Shown here: positions 27,170-56,130 of the stretch, in pieces
How positions within the stretch are numbered: the stretch's first letter is position 1
How the letters are laid out: every line of letters starts with the position of its first letter
Assembly (NCBI GenBank): GCA_900314795.1
Contig: OMWP01000003.1
Location: 1 to 64,000, forward strand
Length of the DNA: 64,000 nt
Source of the DNA: an uncultured Eubacteriales bacterium
GTDB taxonomy: Bacteria > Bacillota > Clostridia > Oscillospirales > Acutalibacteraceae
Direction: 5' to 3'
Position numbers and translations under genes: made by a program
Notes under the pieces: generated by a model
What the model was told of the DNA's origin: nothing
Databases searched by the model: none
The model's input: only the letters and a program-made list of their open reading frames with translations

Positions 27170-27198
27170 TTGCATGTTGAACGAAAAAGCGATATAAT
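27170..27198 (+). promoter_or_regulatory. STAS-NRPS promoter TTGCAT-17-TATAAT
   Basis: TTGCAT at 27170-27175, perfect TATAAT at 27193-27198, 17-nt spacer, 39 nt before the STAS start codon. No other promoter is evident before the NRPS. Confidence 0.75.
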
Positions 27199-27236: not shown

Positions 27237-27530
27237 ATGACTTTAAACACAACTTTCGAAGAAAAGACATGCACGATCATGATCGAAGGCAGTATCGATA
27301 CCCTGACGGCTCGCGACTTGGAACAGGCGGTCAACGAAGCCGCGCCCAAATGTGAGAAGATGGTGCTCGATATGGAGAAGGTCGATTACATCTCCTCGGG
27401 CGGTCTGAGAGTGGTCGTCGGCGCGAATCGTACCGTCGGCAAGGGCAATCTGACACTGAAGAACTTAGCGCCCAATGTGCTGGAGATCTTCCGCCTGACC
27501 GGCTTTACCAAGGTGCTCAACATCGAATAA
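27237..27530 (+). CDS. STAS anti-sigma-factor antagonist upstream of the NRPS
   Basis: 97-aa single-domain STAS protein of the SpoIIAA/RsbV type. In partner switching such a protein is inactivated by Ser phosphorylation from an HATPase kinase, reactivated by a PP2C phosphatase, and binds the kinase when unphosphorylated. The phospho-site region is VDYISSGGLR (Ser53/Ser54), fully conserved. GGAGG precedes ATG. The NRPS follows after 69 nt with no terminator, so the two are probably cotranscribed. No kinase or phosphatase adjoins it; the nearest are in the module starting at 33832. Confidence 0.88.
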   Translation: MTLNTTFEEKTCTIMIEGSIDTLTARDLEQAVNEAAPKCEKMVLDMEKVDYISSGGLRVVVGANRTVGKGNLTLKNLAPNVLEIFRLTGFTKVLNIE

Positions 27531-27599
27531 GATCTAGTCGCCGCTGTTTGATTGACATATGATGCGGCGAAAAGCTAAATACACTCAAGGAGGTTATGT

Positions 27600-30500
27600 A
27601 TGAGTGAATTGATCCGTCGAATCCGCCAAAATATCAAGAACGACCCTGTTTTTACTGTTATCGTGGATCAGGGGGAGAATAACAGCTTTACATATGCACA
27701 GCTTGATGCCTACGCGCGTAAGATCGCGGGTAAGCTGAGCGAGCTGGGCGTCAGCCCGCGTGATTTTGTCACCATCGAGCTGCCCCGTAACAAGGAATAC
27801 ATCGCCGCGATGTACGCGACATGGCTGGTGGGCGCGGCATTCGCGCCGTTGTCGCCGACCTATCCCGCAGAGCGACTGGAATATATCCGCTCCGACTGTC
27901 ACGCCAAGGCAGTCATCAACGAGAAGTTTTTGAAGCGTCTGGGCGATATCACACCCTTTGAGGGCGCTGTCGAGACAGAGGACGAAGACCCGTCCCTCTT
28001 GATCTACACCTCGGGCTCCACAGGTAAGCCCAAGGGTGTGCTGCACTCGCATCAGAGCATCAGCGATTCCGTGATCCGCTATATCGAATATGCCAACGCG
28101 CCGAAGGGCTATCGTGCCGCTTTGGGCGCGCCGTTCACCTTTGTCGCGTCGGTGCAGGGCGTATTCGCGCCGCTGTGCGGTGTGATGACCTCCTACCTGA
28201 TGCCGTATGAGGCGATGCGCGATCCGGTGCTGCTCGCCGATTATATCGAAGAGAATCAGATCAACCGTACCTTTATCAGCCCGAAGATGCTCAAGGTATT
28301 CAAGCCTAAGGGCGACTCGCTGAAAACGGTCTACACGGGCAGTGAACGTGTGTCGGGCACCTACAGCGAGGATTTCGATATCTTCGTCATGTACGGACAG
28401 ACGGAGTCTGCCTCCGCCGTGTTCGGCTTCAAAATAGACAAGCCCTATGACAATACGCCCATCGGTCAGCCGATCGGTAACGAAAAGGCGTATATCTTTG
28501 ATGATGACGGCAACCTCGCGGACGAGGGCGAGCTCTGCCTATCGGGTCACTTCGCGACAGGCTATCTCAACCTGCCCGAGCAGACCGCCAAGACCTTTGT
28601 CGACAATCCCTTTGCCGATAAGGACGGCTATCCTAAGATGCTCAAGACCGGCGACATCGTGCGCCGATCTGAGGACGGCAACATCATCTATCTCAACCGC
28701 AAGGACTGGATGGTCAAGATCAACGGTCAGCGTGTCGAGCCGGGCGAGATCGAGAACGTCATCAAGAATGCCGAGGGCGTGCATGACGCCGCGATCAAGG
28801 ACTTCAAGAACCAGTACGGGCAGGTTTATCTGGTCGCGTATTATGTTGAGAACGAGCCTGTCGACGCGGACGATCTCAAAGAGGCAATCGCCGAAAAGCT
28901 GCCGTCGTATATGATCCCCGCGTTCTTTGTCAAGCTCGACAAACTCCCTGTCAACGCCAACGGCAAGCTCGACAGAAATGCCTTACAAGCGCCCGAAGCA
29001 GGCGCGTTCAAGAGCGACTACACCGCGCCCGAGACCGATATGCAAAAGGCGCTGTGCGATGCGTTCGAGAAGATCCTTTCCATCGAGAACGTCGGTATCG
29101 ACGACGACTTCTTTGCTTTGGGCGGCGACTCCATCAAGTGCGCCATGATCGCCGAGGAATGCAAGGTCTATCACATCGCGACGGCGGATATCTTCGCGGG
29201 CAAGACCCCGCGCATGATCGAGCGCTTGCTGATCGAGAAGGCGACCGCAAAGAAGGTGGGTAAGAAGAAAAAGAAGGTCAAGGTCTATCCGTTGACTCCC
29301 AGCGAGCGCGGCATGTACCTTGAGCAGAAGATGGATCCCGACTCCTCGGTATATAATTTGAACATCGCCGCGATCATCAAGGGCGCGTCCCTCGAGGATA
29401 TCAAGCGTTCGCTCAACGCCGTATTCGCGGCGCATGAGGCGTTCCATTCCTTCTACGCGGAGGAAAGCGGTTTGCCGGTACGCGTGCTGACCGAAAAACT
29501 GCCCACCATTATCGAGAAGACGGCAAAGTCGCGTGAGGAGGTCATCGCGCAGGTCGACAGCTACCTGACTCCCTTCGACCTCAACGCCGATATCCCCGTG
29601 ATCCCGACCCTGTACACAGTCGCCGACGGCAGTATCATCCTGCATCTGGCGATCCATCATATCGCGTTCGACGGCGGCTCCGCCGGCACCTTTGTCAAGG
29701 AGCTGATCGCAGGCTTGAACGGCAAGGAGATCGAAGCGGACGCCATCGATCTGAGCGATCTGTATGATGACAGCCTGAACGAAAAATACGAGAGCGGTAT
29801 GCAGTTCTATCACAAGCTGTTCGAGGACGGCGTACCCGTCAGCGAGATGCCGCTCAAGGGCAAGCGACCGAAGGTGCACCCGCTGTCCGACAGAGAGATC
29901 GTCTTTGACTATGACAACGAGGCGCTCAAAGCCATTGATAATACCGCGCGCCGCTATACGGTCACCGAGTTTGAGCTGATCTTCTCGGCGATCGCTATGG
30001 CGCTGGGCAAATATACCGCGTCCGAGGATCTTGTCCTCGGCATTCCCACCAACACCCGTCCCAACGGCGCCGACAATGTGATCGGTATGTTCGTCAATAC
30101 CGCGCCTGTCCGCGTCAAGCCGCAGAGAGCTGCTGCATTGACTGACTATCTCGGCTCCGTGAGCGAGGCGGTGCGTAACGCTACCTACGGCGCATTCCTG
30201 CCGTTCGAGGACGTGGTGCGTGAATTCGTCAAACAGCGTGACGAAAGCCGCAACCCGATGTTCGACGTGAGCGTCAACTTCATGTGGAATCCGCCCGCGT
30301 ATGACAAAGACGGCCTGAGCATAGAGATGTACGCGCCGCTGCAGAAGATGAGCCGCGATATCGGCATCGTCATCCGCAAGGGTATGAAGGGTCTGCACTT
30401 CATGGTGCAGTATTCGTCCGAGCTGTTCGAGGACAAGGTCGTAGAGGGCTTTATCGAGCAGATCAGACATACCCTCGACCTGCTCTCCGACACCGCGGTC

Positions 30501-33500
30501 ACTACCGTGCGCGAAGCCTCCGCACTGCCTGAGGATCAGGTGAAGGTGATGGAGGAGAAGAGCGTGGTCGAGACCGCTGACACACCCGTCGTCCTCTTAC
30601 ATCAACTCTTTGAGAAGAGCGCCGCCGAGAACTCCGGTAAGACCGCTGTCATCGCGCAGGACGCGACTCTGACATACCAAGAACTCAACGAAAAAGCCAA
30701 TACCGTCGCCGCGAATCTGATCAAGCGCGGCGTCAAGGTCGGCGACAGCGTCGCCCTGCTTCTGCCCCGACAGAGCAGTTATTTCTGCTGTATGTTCGGC
30801 GTGAACAAGGCAGGCGCGGCGTTCATCCCCTGCGATCCGCAGTATCCCGCCGACCGTATCAACCATATCATCACCGACTCCGAGGCGAGCTATATCATCA
30901 CCACCGCCGACAAGCTCGCGGATTACCCCGCCGAGAAGGCGATCGACGTCGATGATATCCTCAAGGGCGATCCCGCCGAGAATCCCGATCTGCAGATGAC
31001 CGGCGACGAGCTGAGTTACATGATCTATACCTCCGGCTCGACCGGCAAGCCCAAGGGCGTTATGCTCCGCCACAAGGGTATCTGTAACTATCTTACCCCG
31101 CATAAGGGGAATACCATCATGTATAACGTCAAAGAGCGCGTGTCCAATTACCTCTCCGTCACGACCGTTTCCTTCGATATGTCCTTTAAGGAGCATACCG
31201 CCGCGCTGTGCAACGGCAAGACCCTGATCTTTGCCGCAGAGGACGAGATGAACGATCCGCGCGCGCTTGCCGAATTGATGGCAAAGCACCACGTTGATTG
31301 TATCAACGCCACTCCGTCGCGTTTACAGCAGTACATGGAGTACGCGCCGTTCAAGGAGCGCCTCGCCGACTGTAAGATCATCATGTCGGGCGGTGAAGCC
31401 TATCCGCTGTCCCTGCGCGACAGCCTGAAGGTCGTCGCGCCCGACGCGCTGATCATCAATACCTACGGCCCGACCGAGATCACCGTCTCCTCCAACGCCG
31501 CGGTGCTCAATGACGCCAAGGCGATCAATATCGGCAGACCGCTGACCAACTACACCGAGTATATCGTGGACAAGTTCGGCGACATGGCGCCCTACGGCGT
31601 GATCGGCGAGCTGTATATTGGCGGCGTAGGCGTTGCCGAGGGCTACCGCAACCTGCCCGAGAAAACCGCTCAGTCGTTTGTCGAATACCGCGGACAGCGC
31701 ATGTACCGCTCGGGCGACTACGCCAAGTACGATGAGGACTTCAACGTCATCATCCTCGGCAGACTGGATAACCAGGTCAAGCTGCGCGGACTGCGCATCG
31801 AGCTGGGTGAGATCGAGGGTCTGATCGCGGTACAGCCGCACATTAAGAAGGTCGCCGTCGTCATCCGCAAGCTCAACGGTCAGGATAACCTCTGCGCTTA
31901 CTTCACCGCGGACGAGCAGATCGATATCGATGCGCTGCGTGATGAGCTGAAAAAGCATCTGACCCATTACATGGTGCCGACCGCTTATCTGCAGATGGTC
32001 GAGATGCCGATGACCGCCAACGGCAAGACGGATATCCGCCGTCTGCCCGAGCCGGTGCCCGTATCGATGGGTGAATTTGTCGCCCCCGCCAACAAGACCG
32101 AGGAGTTCTTCTGCGAGTCCTTCAAAAAGGCGCTCAACCTCGATAAGGTCGGCGCGACAGACGATTTCTTTGAGATCGGCGGCACCTCGCTGGTGGTCAC
32201 CGCGGTGGTGCTGGACGCTTCCGAAAACGGCTTCCCGATCACCTACGGCGACGTGTTCAAGTACACCACGCCCAGAGCGCTTGCCGAGCTGTTCAAGGAC
32301 GGCGACGTCGCAACGGATAACGGTACCTTCGACTTTGACGATTATGATTACACCAAGATCGATAATCTTCTTTTAAAGAATAATATAGAATCCTTCCGCA
32401 ACGGTGAGCAATATGATCTGGGCAACGTGCTGATCACGGGCGCGACCGGCTTCATGGGCGCTCATCTGGTCGCGGAATACCTCGATACAGAGGACGGTTA
32501 TGTCTACTGTATGCTGCGTAAGGGCAAGTTCCACTCTGCCGCCGAGCGTATGCACAATATGCTGTTCTACTACTTTGGCACACGCTTTGAGGACGTCTTT
32601 GCATCGCGTGTACGCGTGGTCGAGGGCGATGTGACCGATTACAAATATTTCGAGCCGCTCGAGGGCGAATCCATCCAAACCGTCTTCAACTGTGCCGCGA
32701 ACGTCAAGCATTTCTCTAACGGCACTGATATCGAGGACATCAACGTCGGCGGCGTTGTCAACTGTATCAAGCTTTGTGAGAAGCTCGACGCGCGACTGGT
32801 ACATTTCTCTACCGTTTCCGTCGCGGGTACGACAGAGGATGTCACAAAGCTGAGCCGTCGCTCACTGGATGAGCAGAGCTTCTACTACGGACAGACGCTC
32901 GATAACAAGTATACTTCCTCCAAGCTCATGGGCGAGAGGATGGTGCTCGAGGCTGTCGCCGAGCGCGGACTGGACGGCAAGGTCATCCGCGTCGGTACCC
33001 TCGCGGCGCGTGAATCCGACGGCGAGTTCCAGATCAACTTTTTGACCAACAACTTCATGGGCAGACTGCGTTCCTATGAGCTGCTCGGCTGCTTCCCGTA
33101 CCAGATGATCGAGAACCAGGTCTGCATGGGTCCGATCGACACCTCCTGCAACGCGTTCTTAAAGCTCGCAAAGACCCCCAAGGATTGCACCGTGTTCAAC
33201 GCGGTCAACAACCATACCCTGCCCTTGGGCGATATCATCCGCAGGATGAACGAAGCGGGCATCCCGATCAACTTTGTCGAGTATGAGGAGTTTGCCGACG
33301 CGCTGAACGAGGCGCAGAAGGATCCCGACAAGGCGGCGATCCTGTCGAGTATGACCGCCTACATGAACACCGCTCACGGCAAGAAGGTCACGGCGCTGCC
33401 GTTTGAATCCCACTACACGACCCAGATCTTGGCGCGTATGGGCTTCTTCTGGAACGCGAGCAACGAGCGCTATGTCAACGACTTTATCAACGTACTGATG

Positions 33501-33539
33501 GGCTTCCGCTTCTTTGACAGCGACAACCTGACAAGATAA
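27600..33539 (+). CDS. NRPS: A-PCP-C-A-PCP-thioester reductase
   Basis: 1979-aa complete two-module synthetase. A1 (1-~490) with YTSGSTGKPKGV and NANGKLDR; PCP1 GGDSIK (Ser511); C (~560-990) with HHIAFDG (686-692); A2 (~1000-1480) with a second YTSGSTGKPKGV, NTYGPTE and TANGKTD; PCP2 GGTSL (Ser1530); reductase (~1608-1979) with VLITGATGFMGAHL and YTSSK. Reductive release gives an aldehyde, so a dipeptide aldehyde (or a cyclised pyrazinone when a free amine exists) is expected, as known for gut clostridial NRPSs. A1 lacks the Asp that binds the substrate alpha-amine (Val182 in FVAS; A2 keeps Asp1193 in FDMS), so A1 may load an acid without an alpha-amino group. No Sfp-type PPTase is in the window. 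AAGGAGG precedes ATG; an intercistronic hairpin TCGCCGC/GCGGCGA (27538-27570) precedes it. Confidence 0.93.
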   Translation: MSELIRRIRQNIKNDPVFTVIVDQGENNSFTYAQLDAYARKIAGKLSELGVSPRDFVTIELPRNKEYIAAMYATWLVGAAFAPLSPTYPAERLEYIRSDCHAKAVINEKFLKRLGDITPFEGAVETEDEDPSLLIYTSGSTGKPKGVLHSHQSISDSVIRYIEYANAPKGYRAALGAPFTFVASVQGVFAPLCGVMTSYLMPYEAMRDPVLLADYIEENQINRTFISPKMLKVFKPKGDSLKTVYTGSERVSGTYSEDFDIFVMYGQTESASAVFGFKIDKPYDNTPIGQPIGNEKAYIFDDDGNLADEGELCLSGHFATGYLNLPEQTAKTFVDNPFADKDGYPKMLKTGDIVRRSEDGNIIYLNRKDWMVKINGQRVEPGEIENVIKNAEGVHDAAIKDFKNQYGQVYLVAYYVENEPVDADDLKEAIAEKLPSYMIPAFFVKLDKLPVNANGKLDRNALQAPEAGAFKSDYTAPETDMQKALCDAFEKILSIENVGIDDDFFALGGDSIKCAMIAEECKVYHIATADIFAGKTPRMIERLLIEKATAKKVGKKKKKVKVYPLTPSERGMYLEQKMDPDSSVYNLNIAAIIKGASLEDIKRSLNAVFAAHEAFHSFYAEESGLPVRVLTEKLPTIIEKTAKSREEVIAQVDSYLTPFDLNADIPVIPTLYTVADGSIILHLAIHHIAFDGGSAGTFVKELIAGLNGKEIEADAIDLSDLYDDSLNEKYESGMQFYHKLFEDGVPVSEMPLKGKRPKVHPLSDREIVFDYDNEALKAIDNTARRYTVTEFELIFSAIAMALGKYTASEDLVLGIPTNTRPNGADNVIGMFVNTAPVRVKPQRAAALTDYLGSVSEAVRNATYGAFLPFEDVVREFVKQRDESRNPMFDVSVNFMWNPPAYDKDGLSIEMYAPLQKMSRDIGIVIRKGMKGLHFMVQYSSELFEDKVVEGFIEQIRHTLDLLSDTAVTTVREASALPEDQVKVMEEKSVVETADTPVVLLHQLFEKSAAENSGKTAVIAQDATLTYQELNEKANTVAANLIKRGVKVGDSVALLLPRQSSYFCCMFGVNKAGAAFIPCDPQYPADRINHIITDSEASYIITTADKLADYPAEKAIDVDDILKGDPAENPDLQMTGDELSYMIYTSGSTGKPKGVMLRHKGICNYLTPHKGNTIMYNVKERVSNYLSVTTVSFDMSFKEHTAALCNGKTLIFAAEDEMNDPRALAELMAKHHVDCINATPSRLQQYMEYAPFKERLADCKIIMSGGEAYPLSLRDSLKVVAPDALIINTYGPTEITVSSNAAVLNDAKAINIGRPLTNYTEYIVDKFGDMAPYGVIGELYIGGVGVAEGYRNLPEKTAQSFVEYRGQRMYRSGDYAKYDEDFNVIILGRLDNQVKLRGLRIELGEIEGLIAVQPHIKKVAVVIRKLNGQDNLCAYFTADEQIDIDALRDELKKHLTHYMVPTAYLQMVEMPMTANGKTDIRRLPEPVPVSMGEFVAPANKTEEFFCESFKKALNLDKVGATDDFFEIGGTSLVVTAVVLDASENGFPITYGDVFKYTTPRALAELFKDGDVATDNGTFDFDDYDYTKIDNLLLKNNIESFRNGEQYDLGNVLITGATGFMGAHLVAEYLDTEDGYVYCMLRKGKFHSAAERMHNMLFYYFGTRFEDVFASRVRVVEGDVTDYKYFEPLEGESIQTVFNCAANVKHFSNGTDIEDINVGGVVNCIKLCEKLDARLVHFSTVSVAGTTEDVTKLSRRSLDEQSFYYGQTLDNKYTSSKLMGERMVLEAVAERGLDGKVIRVGTLAARESDGEFQINFLTNNFMGRLRSYELLGCFPYQMIENQVCMGPIDTSCNAFLKLAKTPKDCTVFNAVNNHTLPLGDIIRRMNEAGIPINFVEYEEFADALNEAQKDPDKAAILSSMTAYMNTAHGKKVTALPFESHYTTQILARMGFFWNASNERYVNDFINVLMGFRFFDSDNLTR

Positions 33540-33831
33540 TGTTGTTTTGATAAAAATAAAAAGTCTTTCCTTCGGATAAATGCCGATTCAATCGACGTTA
33601 CAATAACGGTGTCATTGCGAGGGCTTGACACACATGTGAAGCCCTCGCAATCCCCTTGTCGTTAATGGCTTAAACAGTGAGCTCAAGCGCCTATCAGGGG
33701 GATTCCCACGTCGGAGCGTTGCTCCTCCTCGGAATGACAACGAATACGAAAACCGCATTAATCGACGTCTGCTCGGGGGAAGGCTAACAATCATCCGCGC
33801 TGTATGACGCGGACGAAATTTGGAGATATCT
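33540..33831. repeat. GTCATTGCGAGG-type repeats between NRPS and MATE genes
   Basis: GTCATTGCGAGGGCTTGACACACATGTG with GAAGCCCTCGCAAT at 33610-33650, then GGGATTCCCACG ... GCTCCTCCTCGGAATGACAA (33699-33741), the inverse end of the same family. No terminator or convincing promoter is seen, so readthrough from the NRPS into the MATE operon is possible. Confidence 0.55.
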
Positions 33832-35565
33832 ATGAAACGATCCGGTAAACTGATCAATACAACCTACCGCAATCTGTTGGTATCCACGCTGGCGATGACG
33901 GCTTCGATGTACCTGTCGAGTATCGTTGACGGCATTCTGGTCGGACAGATCCTCGGCACGCTCGAGCTGTCCGCCATCAACCTGACCTATTCGATCAGCT
34001 TTCTCAAAAACATCCTGATCGCGATGTTCACCTTCGGCGGCAACACGCTGGCGATCATGTACAAGGGCAAGCGTGAGAATGAAAAAGCGGATATCGTGTT
34101 CACTCTCTCGTTCTGGGCAGGGATCCTGTCCAGTATGTTGATCGCTGTGATCGGTCTTATGGTAGTCACCCCGACTGCCGGTCTGCTCGGACAGCATAAG
34201 CCTGAGCTCGAGGGGCTGATCGCCGCTTATCTGGTGCCCTTGTGGGTGCTCACACCGCTCACGGCGCTGAACAACCAGACCGCCGCCTTTGCGCGTACCG
34301 ACGGGATGAAGAACTTAGCGACCGCCCTGCCGATCGTGTCCAATGTCATCAACCTGTTCTGCGACTGGCTGTTTATGGCGATGTTCGGATGGGGTATCGC
34401 GGGCGCCGGTTGGGCGACCGTAACGGGCTATGCGCTCGGCTCTCTGCTCGTGATCGGCTATTTCAAGGCAAAAGAGCGTACCGTGCACTTTACCCGCAAG
34501 GCGTTGGCGCATCTCAAGATGATGGGCAAGATCCTGAGCACGGGTATGCCGTCCGCGCTGATCTATGTGTGCAACTTCCTCAGACTCTTCTTTACCAACG
34601 CGATCATCCTCTCCGCGACCGGTACCGCCGGCACCCAGATCGCGTCCGTCTCCTTCTCGCTGAACAGCCTGTGCTTTATCTTTATCGAGGGTGCGACGAT
34701 GACACTGCTGCCGATCCTCGGCGCGCTGTACGGCGAGCGCGATATCAAGGGTCAAAAGCTCGCTTTGCGCTATGGCATGTGGGTGACGCTGGGCATGTCG
34801 ATCGTGATCCTGATCCTCTCCGAGCTGTTCCCGCTGCCGCTGGCGGCGCTGTACGGCTTGACCGATCCGGCGCTGACCGAGGTGTTCGCGGTGACCTTCC
34901 GCATCATGTCCATCAATATCCCGATCCTTGCGGTGATCTACGTCATGCGCACCTTCTATCAGGCGACCAGGCAAAAGTGGCTGGCGAACATCCTCGTCGT
35001 ACTCGACGGCTTTGCCACCATCGTGCCGCTGATGTATATCTTCTCTAAGATCGACATCTATTGGCTGTGGGCTTCGTTCCCGTTCTCAAAGCTGGCGACC
35101 GTTCTCATCACGGTGCTGATCGTCGTGATCTACAAGAACGTCAAGCATAAGGATAATTATCTGCTGATCGATGAGGAAGAGGGCAAAGCGCTCGACTTCT
35201 CCATCCGTAATAATAAGGAGGAGGCTACCGACGCGGCGCATCAGGCGGTCGCCTTCTGTGAGGAAAACGGCGTGGAAGCAAATCTCGCTCATAATATCGG
35301 CGTAGCGGTCGAGGAGCTGTGCGTCAACAGCGCGACCTATGCCGCCAAGGGGCAGACGGACAGCGTTGACGTCTATATCAAGGTGTCGGATCAGTGCGTC
35401 GTGCTCCGACTCAGAGATAACGGCAAAATCTTTAACCCCACCGAATATGTGGATGACAGCGGACGAGAGGTGACCGGTCTCAAGCTGGTACGCTCGCTGA
35501 CGTCCTCGATCGAATATAACCGAGTGTTGGATTTTAACGTCACAGTCGTGACCGTTAACAGGTAA
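33832..35565 (+). CDS. MATE transporter fused to HATPase (anti-sigma-like) domain
   Basis: 577 aa. Residues 1-~440 are a MATE-type multidrug/metabolite exporter with 12 hydrophobic helices (SIVDGILVGQILGTLELSAI is typical of the family). Residues ~450-577 form a GHKL ATPase of the RsbW/SpoIIAB class: N box VAVEELCVNSATYA with the Mg-binding Asn, RLRDNGKIFNP, then GLKLVRSL. Start ATG 33832 has GGAG 7 nt upstream. It lies 290 nt after the NRPS and 4 nt before the phosphatase. The inferred role is export of the NRPS product or a precursor, with the ATPase domain either binding and phosphorylating a STAS protein or gating the transporter. I know of no characterised member with this architecture. 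Confidence 0.88.
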   Translation: MKRSGKLINTTYRNLLVSTLAMTASMYLSSIVDGILVGQILGTLELSAINLTYSISFLKNILIAMFTFGGNTLAIMYKGKRENEKADIVFTLSFWAGILSSMLIAVIGLMVVTPTAGLLGQHKPELEGLIAAYLVPLWVLTPLTALNNQTAAFARTDGMKNLATALPIVSNVINLFCDWLFMAMFGWGIAGAGWATVTGYALGSLLVIGYFKAKERTVHFTRKALAHLKMMGKILSTGMPSALIYVCNFLRLFFTNAIILSATGTAGTQIASVSFSLNSLCFIFIEGATMTLLPILGALYGERDIKGQKLALRYGMWVTLGMSIVILILSELFPLPLAALYGLTDPALTEVFAVTFRIMSINIPILAVIYVMRTFYQATRQKWLANILVVLDGFATIVPLMYIFSKIDIYWLWASFPFSKLATVLITVLIVVIYKNVKHKDNYLLIDEEEGKALDFSIRNNKEEATDAAHQAVAFCEENGVEANLAHNIGVAVEELCVNSATYAAKGQTDSVDVYIKVSDQCVVLRLRDNGKIFNPTEYVDDSGREVTGLKLVRSLTSSIEYNRVLDFNVTVVTVNR

Positions 35566-35569
35566 GAAT

Positions 35570-37630
35570 ATGAAGAAAGATCAAACATCTTCCGACAACA
35601 ATATAAAAGATAAGAAGCCGAAGGAGAAAAAGACGTACTCGCTCTTTGTGCGGATCGGTCTTTTGATGCTGTTGATCATCCTGATCCTTGACGGCGTGGT
35701 GCTGATGCTGACCTACAGGATCTCTTATGAGAACAATCTGAAGATCTTTGAGGATCAGCTGCGAGGCGCGGCAAAGGCGACAGTGCATTACTGCGAGACG
35801 TATAATCTCTATGATGATGAGGTCAACGCGGAGAAGATCGACCCGCTGTTTGACAATATCTGCGAGCTGTTCAACGTCACCTATATTTATGTGGTGGAGC
35901 CAAACATCGAGACGCGTTCCGAGACCTATCTGGAGATCGCGTTCGGCGACGACGCGTCCGAGGAGGCGAAAAGAGCCCGATTCAGAGGCGTGACCGTGAC
36001 CGGCAAGCTCAATGATTCCGAGATCGAAGCCTACAACGGCAACACCGAGGGTGTGATCCTGCACGAAGTGACCTATTTCGATGATGCGCTGATCTGCTAT
36101 ATGCCGTGCACACGGTATTTTGATGAAAAAAAGGACGCTTATGTGAACTACAAAAAGCCCCTGATCGTTGGTGCGGAGATTTCCGTTCAGCAGGTCAACG
36201 CCCGATTTGAGCATCAGTTTTTACAAATCGTGATCCTGACCTTATCGGTCACGCTGGTGATCGCCGGCGCGTTCGCGCTGTTGCTGTATTTCAAGGTTTC
36301 CAAGCCGATCCGTATGATCAGTAACCGTATGAGCGGCTTTGTCACCGACCGCAAGAAGGGCATCCAAAAGCTGGAGGAGAAGGGCAGCAGCGAATTTGCG
36401 CAGATGTCACATTCCTTCAACACGATGACCGATGAGATCAATACCTATATCGACGATATCAAGGAGCTGCACCGCGTCAGGCATATGCAGGAGGCGGAGC
36501 TGGATATCGCGCGTCAGATCCAGAAGGGACTGCTCAAGCCCGAGCGCTCCGATATCGCTACCGCTGAGATCCGCGGCCATATGCATCCTGCCAGAAACGT
36601 CGGCGGCGATCTGTACGACTACTGCCAGCTCGATGACGGCAGAACCTTTGTCGCGATCGCCGATGTATCGGGCAAGGGAATCTCAGCGTCGCTGTTCATG
36701 TCGCGCGCGATCACTTTGCTCCATCTGTACGCGCAGATGAACTATACACCCGCCAAGATCCTAGAGGAGTATAACAATACCCTCGCGTCCCAGAACCCCA
36801 ACGGCATGTTCATCACGACCTTCATCGCGATCTGGGATCCCGCAAAGGGTGAGATGATTTACTCGAACGCGGGTCACAATATCCCGTACGTTCTGTCCGA
36901 CAAGCTGATCCCGCTGGATCAGGCGCACGGCGTAGCGGCAGGTCTGTTCGAGGGCGAGACCTATGAGGACGCGCTGATCACGCTCAAAGCGGGGGATACC
37001 CTGTTCCTCTACACCGACGGCGTGAATGAGGCAAAGAACGTCGAGGGCGCGTTCTATTCGACCGAGCGTCTGGAAGAGAAGCTCACCGATTGTATCGAAG
37101 CTAACGCTCCCGATACCATGCATGTGATCCTCAGCGATCTGCGCGACTTTGTGCAGGAAGCGGAGCAGAATGACGATATCACCATGCTGACGATGAAGAT
37201 CAAGGAGCCTCCGAAAGAAACCGTTCTCGATCTGAGATCTAACGTCGAACAGCTCCCGACCGTCAAGCAGACGATCTTTGCACTGCCTCTCGGTGAGGAC
37301 TTCAAGCGGACGATCTATCTTGCCGCGGAGGAGATCTTTGTCAACATTTGCTCATACGCGTACGAGACGCCCGGGGATGTGACGATGAAGCTGCTGTGCG
37401 CCGACAACGCCGTGGAGCTGACCTTCATCGACGGCGGCAAGCCCTTTGATCCGACCCGTGACGTGCTCGATATCGACGACTACGATCATGAGCACGCGAT
37501 CGGCGGACTGGGGCGCTACCTGGCGTTTTCGATCGCCGAGAGCTATCATTATGAATATACCGACGAAAAGAATATCTTATCGCTGACTTTCAGCAGGGAG
37601 GGACAAGATGACGATCAAAAAGACGCTTGA
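35570..37630 (+). CDS. Membrane sensor with SpoIIE/PP2C and C-terminal HATPase
   Basis: 686 aa. TM1 ~25-47, extracytoplasmic sensor ~48-222, TM2 ~223-246, HAMP (KPIRMISNRMSGF), SpoIIE-type PP2C ~335-540 (VGGDLYDY, IADVSGKGISASLFM, NDDITMLTM), then an RsbW-like HATPase ~555-680 (AAEEIFVNICSYAY, FIDGGKPFDP, GGLGRYLAFSIA). One polypeptide thus carries both the phosphatase that would dephosphorylate a STAS protein and a kinase that could phosphorylate it, under one sensor. The start is 4 nt after the MATE stop, and its 3' end overlaps the STAS gene by 23 nt, which points to tight coupling. Confidence 0.9.
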   Translation: MKKDQTSSDNNIKDKKPKEKKTYSLFVRIGLLMLLIILILDGVVLMLTYRISYENNLKIFEDQLRGAAKATVHYCETYNLYDDEVNAEKIDPLFDNICELFNVTYIYVVEPNIETRSETYLEIAFGDDASEEAKRARFRGVTVTGKLNDSEIEAYNGNTEGVILHEVTYFDDALICYMPCTRYFDEKKDAYVNYKKPLIVGAEISVQQVNARFEHQFLQIVILTLSVTLVIAGAFALLLYFKVSKPIRMISNRMSGFVTDRKKGIQKLEEKGSSEFAQMSHSFNTMTDEINTYIDDIKELHRVRHMQEAELDIARQIQKGLLKPERSDIATAEIRGHMHPARNVGGDLYDYCQLDDGRTFVAIADVSGKGISASLFMSRAITLLHLYAQMNYTPAKILEEYNNTLASQNPNGMFITTFIAIWDPAKGEMIYSNAGHNIPYVLSDKLIPLDQAHGVAAGLFEGETYEDALITLKAGDTLFLYTDGVNEAKNVEGAFYSTERLEEKLTDCIEANAPDTMHVILSDLRDFVQEAEQNDDITMLTMKIKEPPKETVLDLRSNVEQLPTVKQTIFALPLGEDFKRTIYLAAEEIFVNICSYAYETPGDVTMKLLCADNAVELTFIDGGKPFDPTRDVLDIDDYDHEHAIGGLGRYLAFSIAESYHYEYTDEKNILSLTFSREGQDDDQKDA

Positions 37631-37910
37631 CGCAGATACCCTGACCGTAACGGTGGAGGGCTGGCTCGATACCATGACCTCGCCCGAGTTCCATCATGAG
37701 GTTGCCGATCTGGAGGGCGCAAGGAATGTTGTTCTCGATTTTGAGAAGGTGGAGTATATCTCTTCAGCGGGACTCAGAGAGACGGTCGCCTTGTACCGTA
37801 CCGTTTCCGCGAACGGGGGCAGCTTCTCTGTTCGAAAGGTCGCGCCCAAGGTCATGGATGTTTTTACCCTGACAGGCTTTGATAAAAAATTTGAGATTCG
37901 CGCCGACTGA
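37608..37910 (+). CDS. STAS antagonist of module A
   Basis: 100-aa single-domain STAS protein. Phospho-acceptor region VEYISSAGLR (Ser52/Ser53). The start lies inside the end of the phosphatase-kinase gene (23-nt overlap, AGGGAGG upstream), so the two are translationally linked and it is the obvious substrate of that bifunctional enzyme. It closes the operon MATE-HATPase, PP2C-HATPase, STAS. Confidence 0.9.
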   Translation: MTIKKTLDADTLTVTVEGWLDTMTSPEFHHEVADLEGARNVVLDFEKVEYISSAGLRETVALYRTVSANGGSFSVRKVAPKVMDVFTLTGFDKKFEIRAD

Positions 37911-40231: not shown

Positions 40232-40281
40232 ATATTTTGAATATAAATAAACAATTATTTAATTCTTAGGAGGAATATTTG

Positions 40282-40578
40282 ATGACGATCACAAAAACAC
40301 AGGAAGGCACCAAGCTTACGGTTGCCATCGAAGGCGAACTGAACACCAACACCGCTCCCGAACTGGAAAAGGAATTTGAAACCTGTCTGAACGGGATCAC
40401 CTCGCTGGTGATCGACGCGCAAAAAATGGACTACATCTCCAGCGCAGGTCTGCGCGCGCTGTTCGGCGCCGCCGAGGTCATGCAGGAGAACGGTGACATG
40501 TGCGTCATCAACGCAAATGATGAAGTCAAGAACATTTTTGAAGTCACCGGCTTCGTCGATATTATCGACGTAAAATGA
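40282..40578 (+). CDS. STAS antagonist of module B
   Basis: 98-aa STAS protein, phospho-site MDYISSAGLR (Ser53/Ser54). AGGAGG sits 8 nt before ATG 40282. Its stop overlaps the next start (ATGA, 40575-40578), coupling it to the HATPase. First gene of the operon STAS, HATPase, PP2C, GAF-ABC ATPase, permease. Confidence 0.92.
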   Translation: MTITKTQEGTKLTVAIEGELNTNTAPELEKEFETCLNGITSLVIDAQKMDYISSAGLRALFGAAEVMQENGDMCVINANDEVKNIFEVTGFVDIIDVK

Positions 40579-41003
40579 AACGCTTAGAGATACCTGCCGA
40601 AAAAGCAAGGCTGAGCGAGGTGCTCGACTTTGTCCTCGGTTTTGCGGAGGAACTCGGATTTGGGAAAGCAGTGCTTTTTCAGCTGAAGGTCTGTACCGAA
40701 GAGATCTTTGTCAATGTCGCGAGCTACGCGTATGCGCCCGATACAGGCATGATCACCGTCACCGCGGACGGAAGCGCTGATCCGCTGTCGGTCACGTTAT
40801 CGTTCATCGACAGCGGCACACCCTTTGACCCTCTCTCAAAGCCCGATCCCGCAAAGTTCCGTCCCTTCTCGCAAGCGAAAAAGGGCGGACTCGGGATTTT
40901 TATCACCAAGAAACTGATGGACGAGGTCAACTACGCGTATCAGGACGGCAGAAATATCCTGACGATCAGGAAAACCATTGCTGGCAACGGAGAGAAGTCA
41001 TGA
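40575..41003 (+). CDS. RsbW-like serine kinase/anti-sigma HATPase
   Basis: 142-aa GHKL ATPase. N box CTEEIFVNVASYAY with Mg-binding Asn, G1 FIDSGTPFDPL, G2 KKGGLGIFITKKLMDEV. In partner switching it phosphorylates its STAS partner and sequesters a target protein. The start overlaps the STAS stop and its stop overlaps the phosphatase start (ATGA both times), so the three are made in fixed ratio. No sigma factor is nearby, so its target is unknown. Confidence 0.9.
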   Translation: MKRLEIPAEKARLSEVLDFVLGFAEELGFGKAVLFQLKVCTEEIFVNVASYAYAPDTGMITVTADGSADPLSVTLSFIDSGTPFDPLSKPDPAKFRPFSQAKKGGLGIFITKKLMDEVNYAYQDGRNILTIRKTIAGNGEKS

Positions 41004-42619
41004 GTAATGCACCGAAGAAAAAAAGAAGAAAGCTGACGACCAAGGCAATACTCGGGTTGATTTTTGTTCTCGCGTTCATCGTCGTTTTCGTCTGTATCGG
41101 TATCACTGCGCGCTACATCCACGACTTTGACGACAGCCACTACGGCACCGCCTTTACCCTGACGCACACAGCGTCCGAGTCTATCGACGGCGACAAGGTG
41201 CTCGCGTATTACGAGAACAGAGAAACGGATGAATACTATGAGCAGGTACAGCGCTTTTTAAAGCTGCTGCAATCGGAGGGCAAATTAGATCGCCTGTATG
41301 TGTTCGTACCGTCAGAGAACGAGCGCGTCACCATTTGGGACGCCGACAGTGACGACGGGGTCGCGTTAGGCGTTCGTCAGCCCTTTGAGGGTGAATTCAA
41401 GGACAGCGCGATGCGCTCCTTTTCCGGCAAATCCGAGGAGGTCCCTCACATAAACGATCATAACGGCAACAGGCTGGTCATCACCGCGTTTGCACCCATC
41501 TGTGACAAAAGCGGTCAACCGGTCGCGTTGGTCGCCGCCGAGTTCAAGGGCGAGAGCATCATCATCAAGATCGTGGAGTTCAACCTCGCCACGCTGGGGA
41601 TCGTCCTTATCTCCAGTATCATCCCGATCATTATCTTCTTCAACAAGACCAAGAAAGGCGTGCTGCAGCCGATCAAGCGGCTGAATTCCGCCGCCAAGCA
41701 AATGGTGAATGATCTGGAGACGGAGAAGGCCGTTTCACCCGATATCCATACCAACGACGAGATCGAGGAGCTCTCCGATTCATTTGAGCAAATGAACGTG
41801 GAGCTGCGCGATTATATCCGACAGCTCAGGCTTGCGACCGCTGAAAAAGAGCGGATCGGCGCGGAGCTGAATATGGCAAAGGAGATCCAGGCGGCTCAGC
41901 TCCCGAGCGATTTCCCCGCCTTCCCCGACAGGAAGGAATTTGACATCTACGCGTCGATGACGCCGGCTAAGGAGGTCGGCGGAGATTTCTATGATTTCTT
42001 CCTCGTCGATGACGATCATCTCGCGATGGTGATCGCTGATGTCTCGGGCAAGGGCATCCCCGCGTCGCTGTTCATGATGATCTCAAAGATCCTGCTCAAA
42101 AACCGCCTCAAGGCGGGGGACAGCCCCTCAGCGGCACTCGAGCGGGTCAACAATCAGCTGATCGAAAATAACATCAAGCCCAAGCAGTTCGTCACCGTAT
42201 GGATGGCGGTGCTGGAGCTTTCTACGGGCAAGGGCACGGCAGCCAACGCGGGTCATGAGCACCCCGTTCTCAAGCGTGCCGACGGGAGCTACGAGCTCGT
42301 CGAGTACCGTCACGCACCGCCCGTATCGCTGGTCAAAAAGATGCGGTTCCGTGAGCATGATTTTGAGATGCACGCGGGCGACAGGCTGTTCGTCTATACG
42401 GACGGCGTCGCCGAGGCGATGAATCTTGATCGCGAGCTGTACGGCACCGAGCGCTTGCTCACTGTTTTGAACAGCGATCCGAACGCTTCTCCGCAGCAGG
42501 TGCTGGAGAATGTTACAGGCGGTATCAACACCTTTGTCGGAGACGCCGAGCAGTTCGATGATATCACGATGCTCAGCTTCGTATACAACGGCTCCGACGG
42601 CAACGCCGATCAAGCATAA
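41000..42619 (+). CDS. Membrane SpoIIE/PP2C phosphatase with HAMP
   Basis: 539 aa. TM1 ~17-37, extracytoplasmic sensor ~38-192 (Cache-like size, with an RLVITAFAPICDKSGQPVAL strand typical of Cache sensors), TM2 ~197-217, HAMP ~218-275, and PP2C ~300-530 (VGGDFYDFF, IADVSGKGIPASLFM, FDDITMLSF; metal-binding Asp residues all present). It should dephosphorylate the STAS protein 40282 in response to an external ligand. Confidence 0.9.
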   Translation: MSNAPKKKRRKLTTKAILGLIFVLAFIVVFVCIGITARYIHDFDDSHYGTAFTLTHTASESIDGDKVLAYYENRETDEYYEQVQRFLKLLQSEGKLDRLYVFVPSENERVTIWDADSDDGVALGVRQPFEGEFKDSAMRSFSGKSEEVPHINDHNGNRLVITAFAPICDKSGQPVALVAAEFKGESIIIKIVEFNLATLGIVLISSIIPIIIFFNKTKKGVLQPIKRLNSAAKQMVNDLETEKAVSPDIHTNDEIEELSDSFEQMNVELRDYIRQLRLATAEKERIGAELNMAKEIQAAQLPSDFPAFPDRKEFDIYASMTPAKEVGGDFYDFFLVDDDHLAMVIADVSGKGIPASLFMMISKILLKNRLKAGDSPSAALERVNNQLIENNIKPKQFVTVWMAVLELSTGKGTAANAGHEHPVLKRADGSYELVEYRHAPPVSLVKKMRFREHDFEMHAGDRLFVYTDGVAEAMNLDRELYGTERLLTVLNSDPNASPQQVLENVTGGINTFVGDAEQFDDITMLSFVYNGSDGNADQA

Positions 42620-42657
42620 CATACTATACACATAAAACTTCCGGGAGGATAGAGAAA

Positions 42658-43878
42658 ATGGCAGAAAACAAACGATTCGCAAAAGCGTCATGGGCGATCA
42701 TGGCGCAGCTGCTCAAGGTGGAAAACCTGGAGGAGGCGCTGTCGGGCAGCTTGGAGATCATCGTCAAGACGCTCAACAGTGAGGCGGGAGCGATCTGGCT
42801 CCTCGATAAAAAGACCGACCGACTCTCACCTGTGTTCCACATCGGACCCGCCGATATCTCCAATATCAGCGTGGAGAACGGTCTGGGCATCGAGGGTATC
42901 GTGACCCAGACGGGTAAGTCGATGTTCGTAGAGGACGCCGCGTCGGATCCCCGCTTTGACGGCACGGTCTTTGACGACAACGATCTGATCACCAAGACCA
43001 TGATCTGCGTACCGCTCAACAACACCCACGATGTCATCGGCTGCGTGCAGATCGTCAACAAGCTCGACGGCACGCTCTATGATGAGGAGGAAATGCAGCT
43101 GTGCGAGCGCATGGCGTCTCTCGCGGCGATCACGATCGATGAAAAAGGACTGATCGTGGATCTCGAGGAGAAGAAAGAGATCCTCGCGACCCTGCGCAAT
43201 ATCACCAAGGAATTCCAGACCGGCGACACCACCCTCAAGGTGTTGAAGGGCATTAATCTCGATATTTACAAAAACGAGTTTATCGTTGTGCTCGGTGAAT
43301 CCGGCTGCGGTAAATCCACGATGATGAACATCGTCGGCGGCATGGACTTTTTGACCACAGGCGAGCTGACGATCGAGGGCAAGGACTTCTCCCATCCCTC
43401 CGATGATGAGCTGACCAAATACCGCCGCGACTACATCGGCTTTATCTTCCAGTCCTATAACCTGATGCCCAACTTAACGGCGCTCGAGAATGTTGAATTC
43501 ATCGCCGAGCTGGCGGAGGATCCGATGTCCTCTAAGGATGCGCTCGCCAAGGTCAATATGTCCCAGCGTGAGAACAACTATCCCGGACAGATGTCCGGCG
43601 GTCAGCAGCAGCGCGTCTCCATCGCCCGCGCGATCGTGAAAAAGCCTAAGCTGATCCTTGCCGACGAGCCTACCGCGGCGCTGGACTATACCACCAGCAT
43701 CGAGGTGCTCCATACCATCGAGGATATCGTCAAGACGCAGGGCACGACCGTCATGATGATCACGCATAACGTCGAGATCGCCAAGATGGCGGATCGTGTT
43801 GTCAAAGTGCGTAACGGCAAGATCGCTTCCATCAAGAAAAATATGCACCCGCTTCACGCCGAAGATCTGATCTGGTAA
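42658..43878 (+). CDS. GAF domain fused to ABC ATPase (MacB/LolD type)
   Basis: 406 aa. N-terminal GAF domain (~10-165; GLGIEGIVTQTGKSMFVED, MICVPLNN) followed by an ABC nucleotide-binding domain with Walker A GESGCGKST, Q-loop FIFQSYNLMP, signature MSGGQQQRVSIARA, Walker B LILADEP and H-loop MITHN. ABC ATPases of this class energise FtsX/MacB-type permeases; an N-terminal GAF sensor is unusual and implies control by a small ligand or redox cue. GGAGG precedes ATG. It sits between the phosphatase and the permease. Confidence 0.9.
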   Translation: MAENKRFAKASWAIMAQLLKVENLEEALSGSLEIIVKTLNSEAGAIWLLDKKTDRLSPVFHIGPADISNISVENGLGIEGIVTQTGKSMFVEDAASDPRFDGTVFDDNDLITKTMICVPLNNTHDVIGCVQIVNKLDGTLYDEEEMQLCERMASLAAITIDEKGLIVDLEEKKEILATLRNITKEFQTGDTTLKVLKGINLDIYKNEFIVVLGESGCGKSTMMNIVGGMDFLTTGELTIEGKDFSHPSDDELTKYRRDYIGFIFQSYNLMPNLTALENVEFIAELAEDPMSSKDALAKVNMSQRENNYPGQMSGGQQQRVSIARAIVKKPKLILADEPTAALDYTTSIEVLHTIEDIVKTQGTTVMMITHNVEIAKMADRVVKVRNGKIASIKKNMHPLHAEDLIW

Positions 43879-43897
43879 GGCGAGAAAGGGGTTCATC

Positions 43898-46800: not shown

Positions 46801-47221
46801 CAAGGATAAGCTGGAGCTGGTGACAAACGTATTCAACAGGGTCGCGATCCTGCTGCTGGTCATCGCGGGTCTGATGGCGTATTTCATCCTCCTCAACATC
46901 ACGAAGATGTATGTCAATCAAAAGACGCGCGAGCTGACCATCATGCGTATCAACGGCTTCACCGTCAAGGAGGTCAAACGGTATCTGAACACCGAAACGA
47001 TCATCACCTCGGTGATCGGCATCCTGCTCGGTATCGGCGTGGGCGCCTTGATGGGCTATATCGTCATCCGATTTATCGAGATGCCGCACGCACAGTTCGT
47101 CAGAGATCCGTATCTGCTGGGATGGCTGATCAGTACCGCGATCACGGCGGCGTTCACCATCGCAATCACCGCGTTCGGAACGAGAAAGGTCAAGGATCTC
47201 AAGCTCACCGACGCGACATAA
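43898..47221 (+). CDS. FtsX-type ABC permease with long extracytoplasmic coiled coil
   Basis: 1107 aa. TM1 ~20-40, then an extracytoplasmic region whose residues ~235-560 are a repetitive coiled coil (units such as LDEAEAEL, YDSALAQYNSGKA, 11-residue periodicity at DNA level too). FtsX core helices follow (~580-720: three TMs), a second extracytoplasmic domain (~760-960), and three final TMs (~980-1100). Such permeases do mechanotransmission (FtsX, MacB) rather than classical transport. It forms a pair with the GAF-ABC ATPase and ends at a terminator. The substrate or the envelope protein it acts on is unknown. Confidence 0.88.
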   Translation: MKKTQIKDATRNIKKNLLSWISVVFIAAMAASSYLGICYSAASMRNAGDSFYQRTSFRDFEITSSLLMTGADIDALKADEDVKDVEGIYFANAKVSSGDVHENVNIVSVSERINVPEIAEGSLPQKDNECAVEQTIADKLGYAVGDTLTAVDDSGDTPKFMKGKEYTVTGIVQHPDHLAKPDFAPGNRYILVTPGAFDDEQLDGCFMRAEVVLKSTEGMSRFSDEYKKKTDTAKERLNTLADERAALRTTEVKNKYQKEINDGQQKLDEAKEKLTDGKTALDEGKDKISENDAKLKSAKTELDNGKRTLDNSKSQLDSAQGTLSNSKDQLDAASDELYSSNQTLTSGKAELDKNKKVLDAAKAELDANKTKLDEAEAELSDAKETLDAAEQALKEAKSLTPEEIAELTPEELEIYEAVVAAAEELYQEGLAAYNEGKKQFDAGKAKYDSALAQYNSGKAKYDSALEQYNSGKAQYDAGEAAYYEGLSQYESGLSEYNSGKAQYDQGVATYNTNKQKYDDGVKALEEGKTTLADKEEEYNDGVKEYQKNVKKLDDAKKALAELKDCSWFVFDVGSNGGYMHLSLSAKSISNLSVTFSLFFVVIAALVIYTTIKRIVDEQRKLVGATKALGFYNGEILGKYLVFGVSATIVGALIGIVAGYFVIQGVVLKSYSNMYVIGAIPPGILAATSAIAVGLAVVLAIVAVTISCMSLMRSTAMDLMREKQPKAWKSSKTSKSGASLYSRLILRNMRSDLARVIVTTVSVAGCCALLVIGFTLRGSVSSVADKQYGEIVKYDEKLTFNSATSENAEQEIEAILDDAGVTYVKAQSGLRAFKAGSDVEYTDLICGDMEALSEFYNFKLWKKDTGLPTDADGVFIQCRTTETSGKNEGDDIVIYDGTMAPNEVKVAGVFNNYMGRNMIMNEASYEKYFGEKPEMNTYYLFLNGADKEKLVEKLGQVKGYENLTPSTEDKDKLELVTNVFNRVAILLLVIAGLMAYFILLNITKMYVNQKTRELTIMRINGFTVKEVKRYLNTETIITSVIGILLGIGVGALMGYIVIRFIEMPHAQFVRDPYLLGWLISTAITAAFTIAITAFGTRKVKDLKLTDAT

Positions 47222-53828: not shown

Positions 53829-53909
53829 GGCGACTGCCAAGATTGATAAGCCGAAAAATGCCGAAATATTGCCATTCTCAGCAGATTCGGATATCTACAG
53901 TCACCCTAA
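53829..53909. mobile_element. MITE right half, copy 3
   Basis: Matches 4553-4633 over ~80 bp with some changes and ends ...CAGTCACCCTAA. Its last bases supply the TAG stop codon (53908-53906, minus strand) of the neighbouring HATPase gene. Confidence 0.7.
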
Positions 53910-54316: not shown

Positions 54317-54349
54317 AGCGACTCGCTCCTTTCAAAAGGAAAGTCGGCG

Positions 54350-54649
54350 TTACTGTATGTCAAACACGGCGTCCAGACCTGTGTTTGACAGTACGTCCAT
54401 AAAGTTTTCTCCTACGTTGGAAAGTACCATGGAACCCTTTGACGCCTTCATCTTCTTGAAAGTAGCCAGCAAAATACGCAAGCCGGCAGAGGAGACATAG
54501 TCGCACTCAGCAAAATTCAGCGTCAATTCCTGCACGCCGCCCAGCTCCTTGTCCAGAAGTGCGGACAGCTCCGGCGCGGTCAGGGTGTTGAGTTCACCGG
54601 ACAAGTGAACGGTTAATGCGGTTCCGTTTTTTTCAGCGGTCAATTTCAT
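54350..54649 (-). CDS. STAS antagonist of module C
   Basis: 99-aa STAS protein, phospho-site CDYVSSAGLR (Ser53/Ser54). GGAGGTAATAAAA precedes ATG. It is 15 nt from the phosphatase and 33 nt from the kinase, so it is the likely substrate of both. Confidence 0.92.
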   Translation of the reverse strand: MKLTAEKNGTALTVHLSGELNTLTAPELSALLDKELGGVQELTLNFAECDYVSSAGLRILLATFKKMKASKGSMVLSNVGENFMDVLSNTGLDAVFDIQ

Positions 54650-54664
54650 TTTTATTACCTCCTA

Positions 54665-56113: not shown

Positions 56114-56130
56114 AGCTCAGGTTCCTTTCA

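Follow-up and report, generated by a model that had tools for sequence, protein, structure and literature searches.

Does a partner-switching module without a sigma factor serve the synthesis and export of a peptide aldehyde? The question is raised by five genes in a 64,000-nucleotide (nt) stretch of DNA from an uncultured Eubacteriales bacterium, the whole of which is called the window here and in which all coordinates are counted. The locus (27237-37910, all genes on the + strand) encodes in order a small STAS protein (STAS1), a nonribosomal peptide synthetase (NRPS), a MATE exporter with a C-terminal GHKL-type ATPase domain (MATE-ATPase), a membrane-anchored PP2C phosphatase with a similar domain (PP2C-ATPase) and a second STAS protein (STAS2). 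A preliminary description of this DNA had proposed that Ser phosphorylation of the STAS proteins controls production and export of an aldehyde. Here the linkage between NRPS and switch genes is shown to be conserved and, as far as the open literature shows, undescribed. The switch module and the NRPS are almost certainly functionally linked in some way; whether the module is dedicated to the pathway and acts at the protein level is a more evenly balanced matter. A sigma-less phospho-switch with a transporter-ATPase fusion is a testable control circuit, and it would widen the range of partner switching to include assembly-line enzymes and exporters.

Linkage of the NRPS to switch genes

The linkage was followed from the NRPS side in 59 relatives and in an order sample of 394 genomes, mapped with our own hidden Markov models (HMMs). 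At most seven candidates per genome were scored among the relatives and at most two in the order and class samples, so that weaker NRPSs were missed. Domain labels were given by our own iterated HMMs and checked against Pfam on samples, and the survey rows share ancestry and are not independent. The genus of the window yielded 33 NRPS rows from 31 loci, two loci giving two rows each (the two rows of L081 are one interrupted gene). Within 6 kb of these rows, STAS was found in 30, HATPase in 26, MATE-ATPase in 21 and PP2C in 19, and all three rows without STAS sit on cut contigs. The window's own genome has 11 STAS matches in 2.53 Mb, and about 0.08 STAS genes would be expected within 6 kb of an NRPS as estimated from genome density. 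Gene order and strand were reshuffled across the genus loci, while the link to the switch genes was kept.

A second survey was keyed to the MATE-ATPase and took the best 80 of 211 confirmed matches; these were retrieved with an alignment of NRPS-linked MATE-ATPases, so NRPS linkage is biased in them, and they are included in the counts for A-T-C-A-T-R rows, in both trees and in the gap lengths given below (A, adenylation; T, thiolation; C, condensation; R, reductase). The 28 non-redundant A-T-C-A-T-R rows, most of them retrieved by MATE-ATPase similarity, had MATE-ATPase within 6 kb in 27, STAS in 26 and PP2C in 25. This is the neighbourhood comparison that the preliminary description had called for, and it had reasoned that NRPS orthologues without any of the switch genes would speak against its proposal; the outcome does not refute that proposal. 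Only L189 carried no switch part nearby, on a contig that stops inside the MATE gene; in L178 (Pseudobutyrivibrio sp. ACV-2) the MATE-ATPase is the only part present. The five full-length matches from the NRPS-first survey with at least 76% identity (the window and L072-L075) all have STAS and MATE-ATPase.

The 80 loci come mostly from rumen Ruminococcus and Clostridia assemblies, and also from Ruminococcus sp. FC2018, Pseudobutyrivibrio sp. ACV-2, Petralouisia muris, other Lachnospiraceae and Acetobacterium assemblies. An NRPS or a fragment of one lies at most 1 kb from the MATE gene in 75 of the 80, the exceptions being L144, L171, L181, L196 and L215, the last of which has full flanks and no NRPS. 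The linked enzymes are of the types A-T-C-A-T-R, A-T-C-A-T-C-A-T-R, C-A-T-C-A-T-R, C-A-T-R and a form of about 997 amino acids (aa) with the order A-T-C. With both surveys mixed, 113 NRPS rows (108 loci) had STAS within 6 kb in 73 and MATE-ATPase in 73, and on a tree built from the last C domain of 107 rows the presence of STAS changes at least 15 times, in part perhaps owing to cut contigs.

The spacing is tight in many of these loci. Of 21 A-T-C rows, 16 place STAS at -3 to +30 nt relative to the NRPS. Four C-A-T-R rows of other families (L087, L119, L121 and L218) form a unit STAS-NRPS-PP2C-HATPase with no adjoining MATE-ATPase of its own, in which the NRPS is the sole constant non-switch protein; L121 has a small open reading frame (ORF) between STAS and NRPS, and L218 has the MATE-ATPase of another NRPS upstream.

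The exporter-ATPase fusion and the switch proteins

The MATE protein of the window scored 78.3 bits with Pfam MatE (cut-off 24.9) and 112.1 with TIGR00797, below its cut-off of 147.4. Its fused HATPase_c_2 domain was found by Pfam at 2e-12, above the cut-off, with the N-box EE..N and DxG present. The AlphaFold2 model (predicted local distance difference test, pLDDT, 85.2) shows transporter helices followed by an alpha/beta domain past residue 450. The 50 PDB matches listed by Foldseek for this model are MATE and related flippase structures; thus the Foldseek search itself does not show a GHKL fold, and a PDB sequence search with the fused domain alone gave weak matches (best E 0.17). The GHKL assignment of the fused domain rests on Pfam, motifs and predicted secondary structure. 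Among NRPS-linked MATE-ATPases, N-box Glu and Asn of this domain are kept in 55 of 75, the window included.

In a MATE-ATPase tree of 106 rows, the main NRPS-linked branch has 81 rows (78 with an NRPS next door, three not; support 91), and a separate branch of seven rows with the A-T-C type, five with an NRPS, stands amid NRPS-less MATE-ATPases. Since NRPS-linked MATE-ATPases occupy two separate regions, the pairing probably arose more than once; both trees were made with FastTree only, and several branches of this one are long. Carriage of the MATE-ATPase by viruses was also considered and is unsupported, as a scan of viral contigs confirmed no relative.

In the STAS proteins, the second Ser of the Y-x-S-S motif is kept in 97/97, counting NRPS-adjacent and NRPS-less MATE-ATPase loci. 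Aligned to solved SpoIIAA chains, Ser53 of STAS2 falls in a column with Ser in 1th8 and Ala in 1tid, which we take to be the phosphosite Ser58 of SpoIIAA. The GGD motif of PP2C is present in 69 of 71 proteins, and the remaining two are gapped at that place. In the PP2C-ATPase of the window, a SpoIIE-type PP2C (Pfam 2e-46) and HATPase_c_2 (above the Pfam cut-off) were found. Its AlphaFold2 model (pLDDT 80.8, predicted TM-score 0.45) runs from an N-terminal helix through an outer mixed domain, a second long helix and PP2C to the ATPase domain, and its best PDB match is 3ke6, the RsbU-RsbW domains of Rv1364c (E 8.8e-20). A sigma70_r2 profile gave 14 matches over the genome of the window, none of them on the window contig C33 (103,603 bases). 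The earlier statement that every part of a SpoIIA/Rsb switch except the sigma factor is present therefore holds, with STAS, HATPase_c_2 and PP2C found and no sigma match on the contig.

GHKL membrane proteins beside NRPSs across the class

The class sample comprised 391 genomes, 62 of them with a match; 83 places were listed besides the two of the window's own genome, and the 40 regions retrieved were picked mostly because the match extended to the reductase domain, not by their neighbours. Within 1.5 kb of 34 reductase-ended NRPS rows, a histidine kinase was found in 18 (nine with a seven-transmembrane, 7TM, sensor), a MATE-ATPase in 10, PP2C in one and none of these in five, so that a membrane protein with a GHKL domain neighbours the NRPS in 28 of 34. 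Each of these kinases and MATE-ATPases is encoded immediately next to the NRPS gene and in its orientation, at a distance of -46 to +128 nt. Thirteen order-level rows gave three kinases, two MATE-ATPases, four PP2C with STAS and four with none. Pfam found HATPase_c in all kinases run, namely 12 of the 18 class kinases and three order-level ones (L122, L133 and L124); the remaining six class kinases were called by our own HMM.

Common across the class sample is thus a GHKL membrane protein beside the NRPS, not STAS, and the partner switch is the form of this pairing found mainly in the window's genus and its kin. The pairing of STAS and NRPS drawn in the preliminary description is kept in the genus; it is not general in Clostridia, where the adjoining GHKL protein is often a histidine kinase. 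The order NRPS then GHKL membrane protein is a genomic marker for finding such pathways.

In other clostridial families (L236-L260, L122, L124 and L133), reductase-ended NRPSs often stand directly beside a 7TM or HAMP histidine kinase, and such kinases may sense the product.

Proposed mechanism and alternatives

We favour, at about an even chance, a sigma-less partner-switching module that is dedicated to the peptide-aldehyde pathway and controls, at the protein level, how an acylated amino aldehyde is made and exported. In such a circuit the GHKL domains of the MATE exporter and of the PP2C protein would bind the STAS proteins and phosphorylate their conserved Ser, and the membrane PP2C would strip the phosphate once its outer domain senses a signal. 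Unphosphorylated STAS would be the currency: by binding the NRPS and/or the exporter GHKL it would turn the pathway on or off, and synthesis and export of the reactive aldehyde would be matched. That a STAS phosphorylation cycle operates is, we infer, very probable. That the switch acts on pathway proteins rather than on transcription is a finely balanced call. The NRPS is suggested as target by the units STAS-NRPS-PP2C-HATPase and by the STAS genes at -3 to +30 nt from it, and the exporter as a second partner by the GHKL domain that it carries; because these two appear to be the targets, a local protein-level switch is favoured, like the enzyme-directed switches discussed below. The linkage is well supported, and the NRPS and/or the exporter GHKL are the putative target proteins.

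Several results weigh against this mechanism. In other genera of the order, 28 NRPS rows had STAS nearby in seven, PP2C in four, HATPase in seven and MATE-ATPase in two; one flank is shorter than 6 kb in most of the misses, while L132, L133, L135 and L136 lack all four parts despite full flanks. In the class sample, STAS was near the NRPS in 3/32 R-terminated rows and 1/4 A-T-C rows. On the C-domain tree, 17 of 107 rows have a MATE-ATPase while neither STAS nor PP2C lies within 6 kb; some of these rows are at cut contigs. A whole clade has lost the N-box Asn of the fused GHKL domain, with His in 12 of 75 and a few more degenerate, so that kinase activity of the fused domain is not a given. The His forms come from loci with the three-module NRPS. 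Ten A-T-C-A-T-C-A-T-R loci combine a degenerate fused domain with a nearby STAS; a separate intact HATPase occurs in seven of them, one has a separate HATPase scored as non-intact, and two have none (L219 and L077, where contig ends are close). As degenerate domains are usually accompanied by a separate intact HATPase, there are hints that the fused domain can be a docking site rather than a kinase, which also tells against the simple form in which the exporter is the kinase. The 14 sigma70_r2 matches elsewhere in the genome, one adjoining a SpoIIA-like pair, further leave room for STAS action in trans on a sigma factor.

The first alternative casts the MATE-ATPase chiefly as receptor or transporter-sensor of the NRPS product, like the adjoining histidine kinases, its GHKL domain reporting flux to STAS for feedback on expression or synthesis. 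The class-wide pattern (28/34 rows, with 18 histidine kinases, nine of them with a 7TM sensor, and 10 MATE-ATPases), HATPase_c in all Pfam-run kinases and the MATE-ATPases that remain beside NRPSs without a local STAS all agree with this. By fold and family, however, MATE is an exporter, the fused domain is HATPase_c_2 with no His-kinase core, and its N-box Asn is lost in one clade. We regard this alternative as rather unlikely.

Under a classical scheme, STAS would relieve a HATPase anti-sigma factor acting on a distant sigma factor or regulator, and the NRPS genes would merely be in the regulon. No sigma match lies on C33, no sigma factor was seen among the neighbour proteins scanned with Pfam (a subset of the neighbours, one of which, in L119, is a response regulator), and the GHKL domain is tied to the exporter; these facts fit the scheme poorly. 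It does draw some strength from the number of sigma70_r2 matches, from a SpoIIAA-SpoIIAB-SigF-like set on C62, by which sigma switching probably exists in this cell, and from a sigma-A-like promoter upstream of STAS1, yet we consider it improbable, slightly more so than a receptor role.

Chance or hitch-hiking, by which an NRPS happens to sit near some switch module in genomes rich in them (three within 31 kb of the window, 11 STAS genes in the genome), is very improbable, mainly because the link persists through reshuffled order and strand, and also in view of spacings of a few nt and of STAS in 30/33 genus rows against the estimated 0.08 per row.

A bolder reading makes the MATE-ATPase a product-gated exporter-kinase, in which passage of the peptide aldehyde through the MATE part sets the GHKL kinase, GHKL phosphorylates STAS, and STAS directly starts or stops the NRPS. 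This reading is speculative, and we doubt it more than we believe it. If true, synthesis of a natural product and its export would be coupled in one closed loop at the protein level, a counterpart to the pairs of NRPS and histidine kinase seen in other Clostridia.

Predicted product

An aldehyde product was predicted from the C-terminus of the NRPS. NAD_binding_4 was found there by Pfam (7.8e-35) and the NRPS chain 6vtj matches residues 1492-1973; the enzyme therefore ends in a reductase domain, and to that extent the aldehyde holds. All six domains named in the preliminary description were recovered, as two AMP-binding stretches, two PP-binding, one Condensation and one NAD_binding_4.

The FDxS Asp of A domains holds the alpha-amino group of the substrate. 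In the first A domain of the A-T-C-A-T-R enzymes this Asp is replaced by Val in 28/28, the window included, and in the second A domain it is kept in 28/28. The position is Val or Ile in 25/25 A-T-C enzymes, and in the first A domain of A-T-C-A-T-C-A-T-R enzymes the Asp occurs in 0/22 (one gapped). As the first A domain has no FDxS Asp, the enzyme probably starts with an acyl acid that lacks an alpha-amine, and its product is probably an N-acyl aminoaldehyde akin to the acylated dipeptide aldehydes of gut bacteria; with such a starter, ring closure to a pyrazinone would be blocked.

The aureusimine synthetase AusA has the module order A-T-C-A-T-R, and its first A domain carries the FDxS Asp. 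It shares its order with the NRPS of the window and is the best NCBIfam match of the latter (NF047350). The score (1004.8 bits) is far below the family cut-off of 2500 and the first A domain differs in the FDxS Asp, so a pyrazinone of the AusA type is unlikely and was set aside. Statements on published work here and below refer to the excerpts covered. Of 981 rumen genomes, 13 had dimodular NRPSs able to produce pyrazinones (PMC9540692). Gut bacteria make acylated dipeptide aldehydes (PMC8518294, PMC12327764), and gut-bacterial peptide aldehydes are inhibitors of proteases and proteasomes (PMC8518294). The ruminopeptin-type NRPS of Ruminococcus bromii, on whose control the excerpts say nothing, would be similar in its dipeptide-aldehyde chemistry in Ruminococcus and its acylated products (PMC12327764, PMC8518294), and the C-terminal reductase is found in the window NRPS too (NAD_binding_4); the window differs by its A-T starter pair without FDxS Asp, and the likeness to the rup system lies in predicted product chemistry.

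Relation to known switches

With SpoIIA/Rsb (SpoIIAA-SpoIIAB-SpoIIE and RsbV-RsbW-RsbU), the window shares STAS with a phosphosite Ser, HATPase_c_2 with N-box E/N and DxG, and a SpoIIE-type PP2C. It differs in having no sigma factor match on the contig, in the fusion of its HATPases to a MATE exporter and to PP2C, and in its tie to an NRPS. Rv1364c, in which RsbU and RsbW form one protein, resembles the PP2C-ATPase in holding PP2C and HATPase in a single chain and is its top PDB match, whereas the protein of the window has a predicted membrane anchor and outer domain, and its STAS partners are separate genes.

Indigoidine is made by an NRPS. The excerpts of a study on indigoidine production discuss a regulator carrying an RsbW-like domain; the bacterium concerned has no RsbV homologue (PMC12826045). 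STAS or STAS-like proteins regulate enzymes in HsbA-HsbD, BgrV-BgrR and SiaC-SiaD, where the phosphorylation state matters and the target is a diguanylate cyclase (PMC8457831), in contrast to the NRPS or exporter as putative target in the window. SiaC of SiaABCD is a DUF1987 protein (PMC8457831), whereas the small proteins of the window are Pfam STAS and have an NRPS and a MATE protein as partners. In a review of STAS-only proteins, the terms nonribosomal, efflux and secondary metabol gave no match. Within the covered parts of the open-licence literature, subscription work being outside this scope, we found no paper describing an NRPS- or MATE-linked STAS switch and no account of such a switch controlling peptide-aldehyde synthesis in gut bacteria; the earlier remark that no described system of this kind is known agrees with this.

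Organization of the locus

The features are listed in Table 1; ORFs and Pfam placed every gene and domain where the preliminary description had put it.

Table 1. Features of the NRPS and switch locus, with positions in the window.
Feature	Position	Strand	Basis and remarks
Promoter-like element, TTGCAT-17 nt-TATAAT	27170..27198	+	Sequence reading; ~40 nt upstream of STAS1
STAS1, 97 aa, YISSGGL motif, putative phosphosite Ser54	27237..27530	+	Pfam STAS 3.4e-14; NCBIfam ant_ant_sig above cut-off
NRPS, 1979 aa, A-T-C-A-T-R, reductive release	27600..33539	+	Pfam; first A domain without FDxS Asp
Repeat-bearing DNA between NRPS and MATE genes	33560..33830		Own-genome matches
MATE exporter with C-terminal HATPase_c_2	33832..35565	+	Pfam, motifs
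Membrane-anchored sensor with SpoIIE-type PP2C and HATPase_c_2	35570..37630	+	Pfam, AlphaFold2
STAS2, 100 aa, YISSAGL motif, Ser53	37608..37910	+	Pfam; PDB alignments

The TATAAT upstream of STAS1 is aligned in 7/8 loci of the window clade, the exception being L148; the consensus promoter scan did not list this element, whose -35 matches in only 3/6 positions. STAS1 and the NRPS are 69 nt apart, and a + strand consensus scan listed no terminator-like site in this interval, as the preliminary description had read it. The MATE and PP2C genes are separated by 4 nt, and those of PP2C and STAS2 overlap by 23 nt. The MATE-ATPase ORF opens at a TTG (33820-35565); the ATG at 33832 is preceded by GGAG and is the likelier start.

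Depending on this start, the interval between the NRPS and MATE genes is 280-292 nt. It gave 12 matches in the window's own genome, two of which are itself, one another long copy (142 nt, 86%) and the rest of 37-48 nt. Of 27 non-redundant A-T-C-A-T-R loci, 25 have a gap of 9-24 nt here. Longer ones are found in the window (280), L185 (349), L192 (348), L072 and L186 (69 each), and among A-T-C-A-T-R enzymes they are restricted to its nearest kin. The 290-nt gap noted earlier is thus present in the window, where it proves to be a repeat-bearing stretch found only in those kin. In nearly all relatives the NRPS and exporter genes are therefore contiguous, and their treatment as separate units owing to the gap is disfavoured by the short gaps of these 25 loci.

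Other genes at the NRPS loci and in the window

A gene of one cluster, the tested member of which is a carboxylesterase, lies near the A-T-C enzyme of about 997 aa in 15 loci. In L088-L105 this enzyme has STAS closely in front and mostly a gene of the carboxylesterase cluster nearby, a second switch-linked pathway in the genus. The window's own genome has an A-T-C enzyme with STAS on C27 (L095), where neither PP2C nor HATPase nor MATE-ATPase was seen in the neighbourhood. Two other neighbour proteins recur: one is CapA-like (PGA_cap), about 396 aa long and found in 19 loci (for example L074:17660-18847), usually before STAS; the other resembles triosephosphate isomerase, is about 250 aa long and occurs in 10 loci (for example L077:1805-2557). 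One member of each was tested with Pfam, that of the latter being from L076.

Near the NRPS loci, the Na+/dicarboxylate symporters at L087:3635-5209 and L194:903-2537 also match our own HATPase model, Pfam finding the symporter only, and they are possibly a second kind of transporter-ATPase fusion. In L110 (9812-11404, - strand), a single ORF with STAS, an APH-like phosphotransferase and HATPase_c_2 stands beside a MATE-ATPase gene and another STAS.

The window holds two further switch modules. The second (40279-47221, + strand) has STAS, HATPase_c_2 and HAMP-PP2C, followed by an ABC ATPase and an FtsX-like permease; its STAS-HATPase-PP2C genes also follow the NRPS locus in L185 and are not in the L186 stretch. 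The third (53906-57882, - strand) has a MATE protein with a C-terminal GHKL-like region, a SpoIIE PP2C, STAS and HATPase_c_2; its GHKL-like region was called by our own HMM only, Pfam supporting MATE and no HATPase. In all, three transporter-linked switch modules lie in 31 kb of the window.

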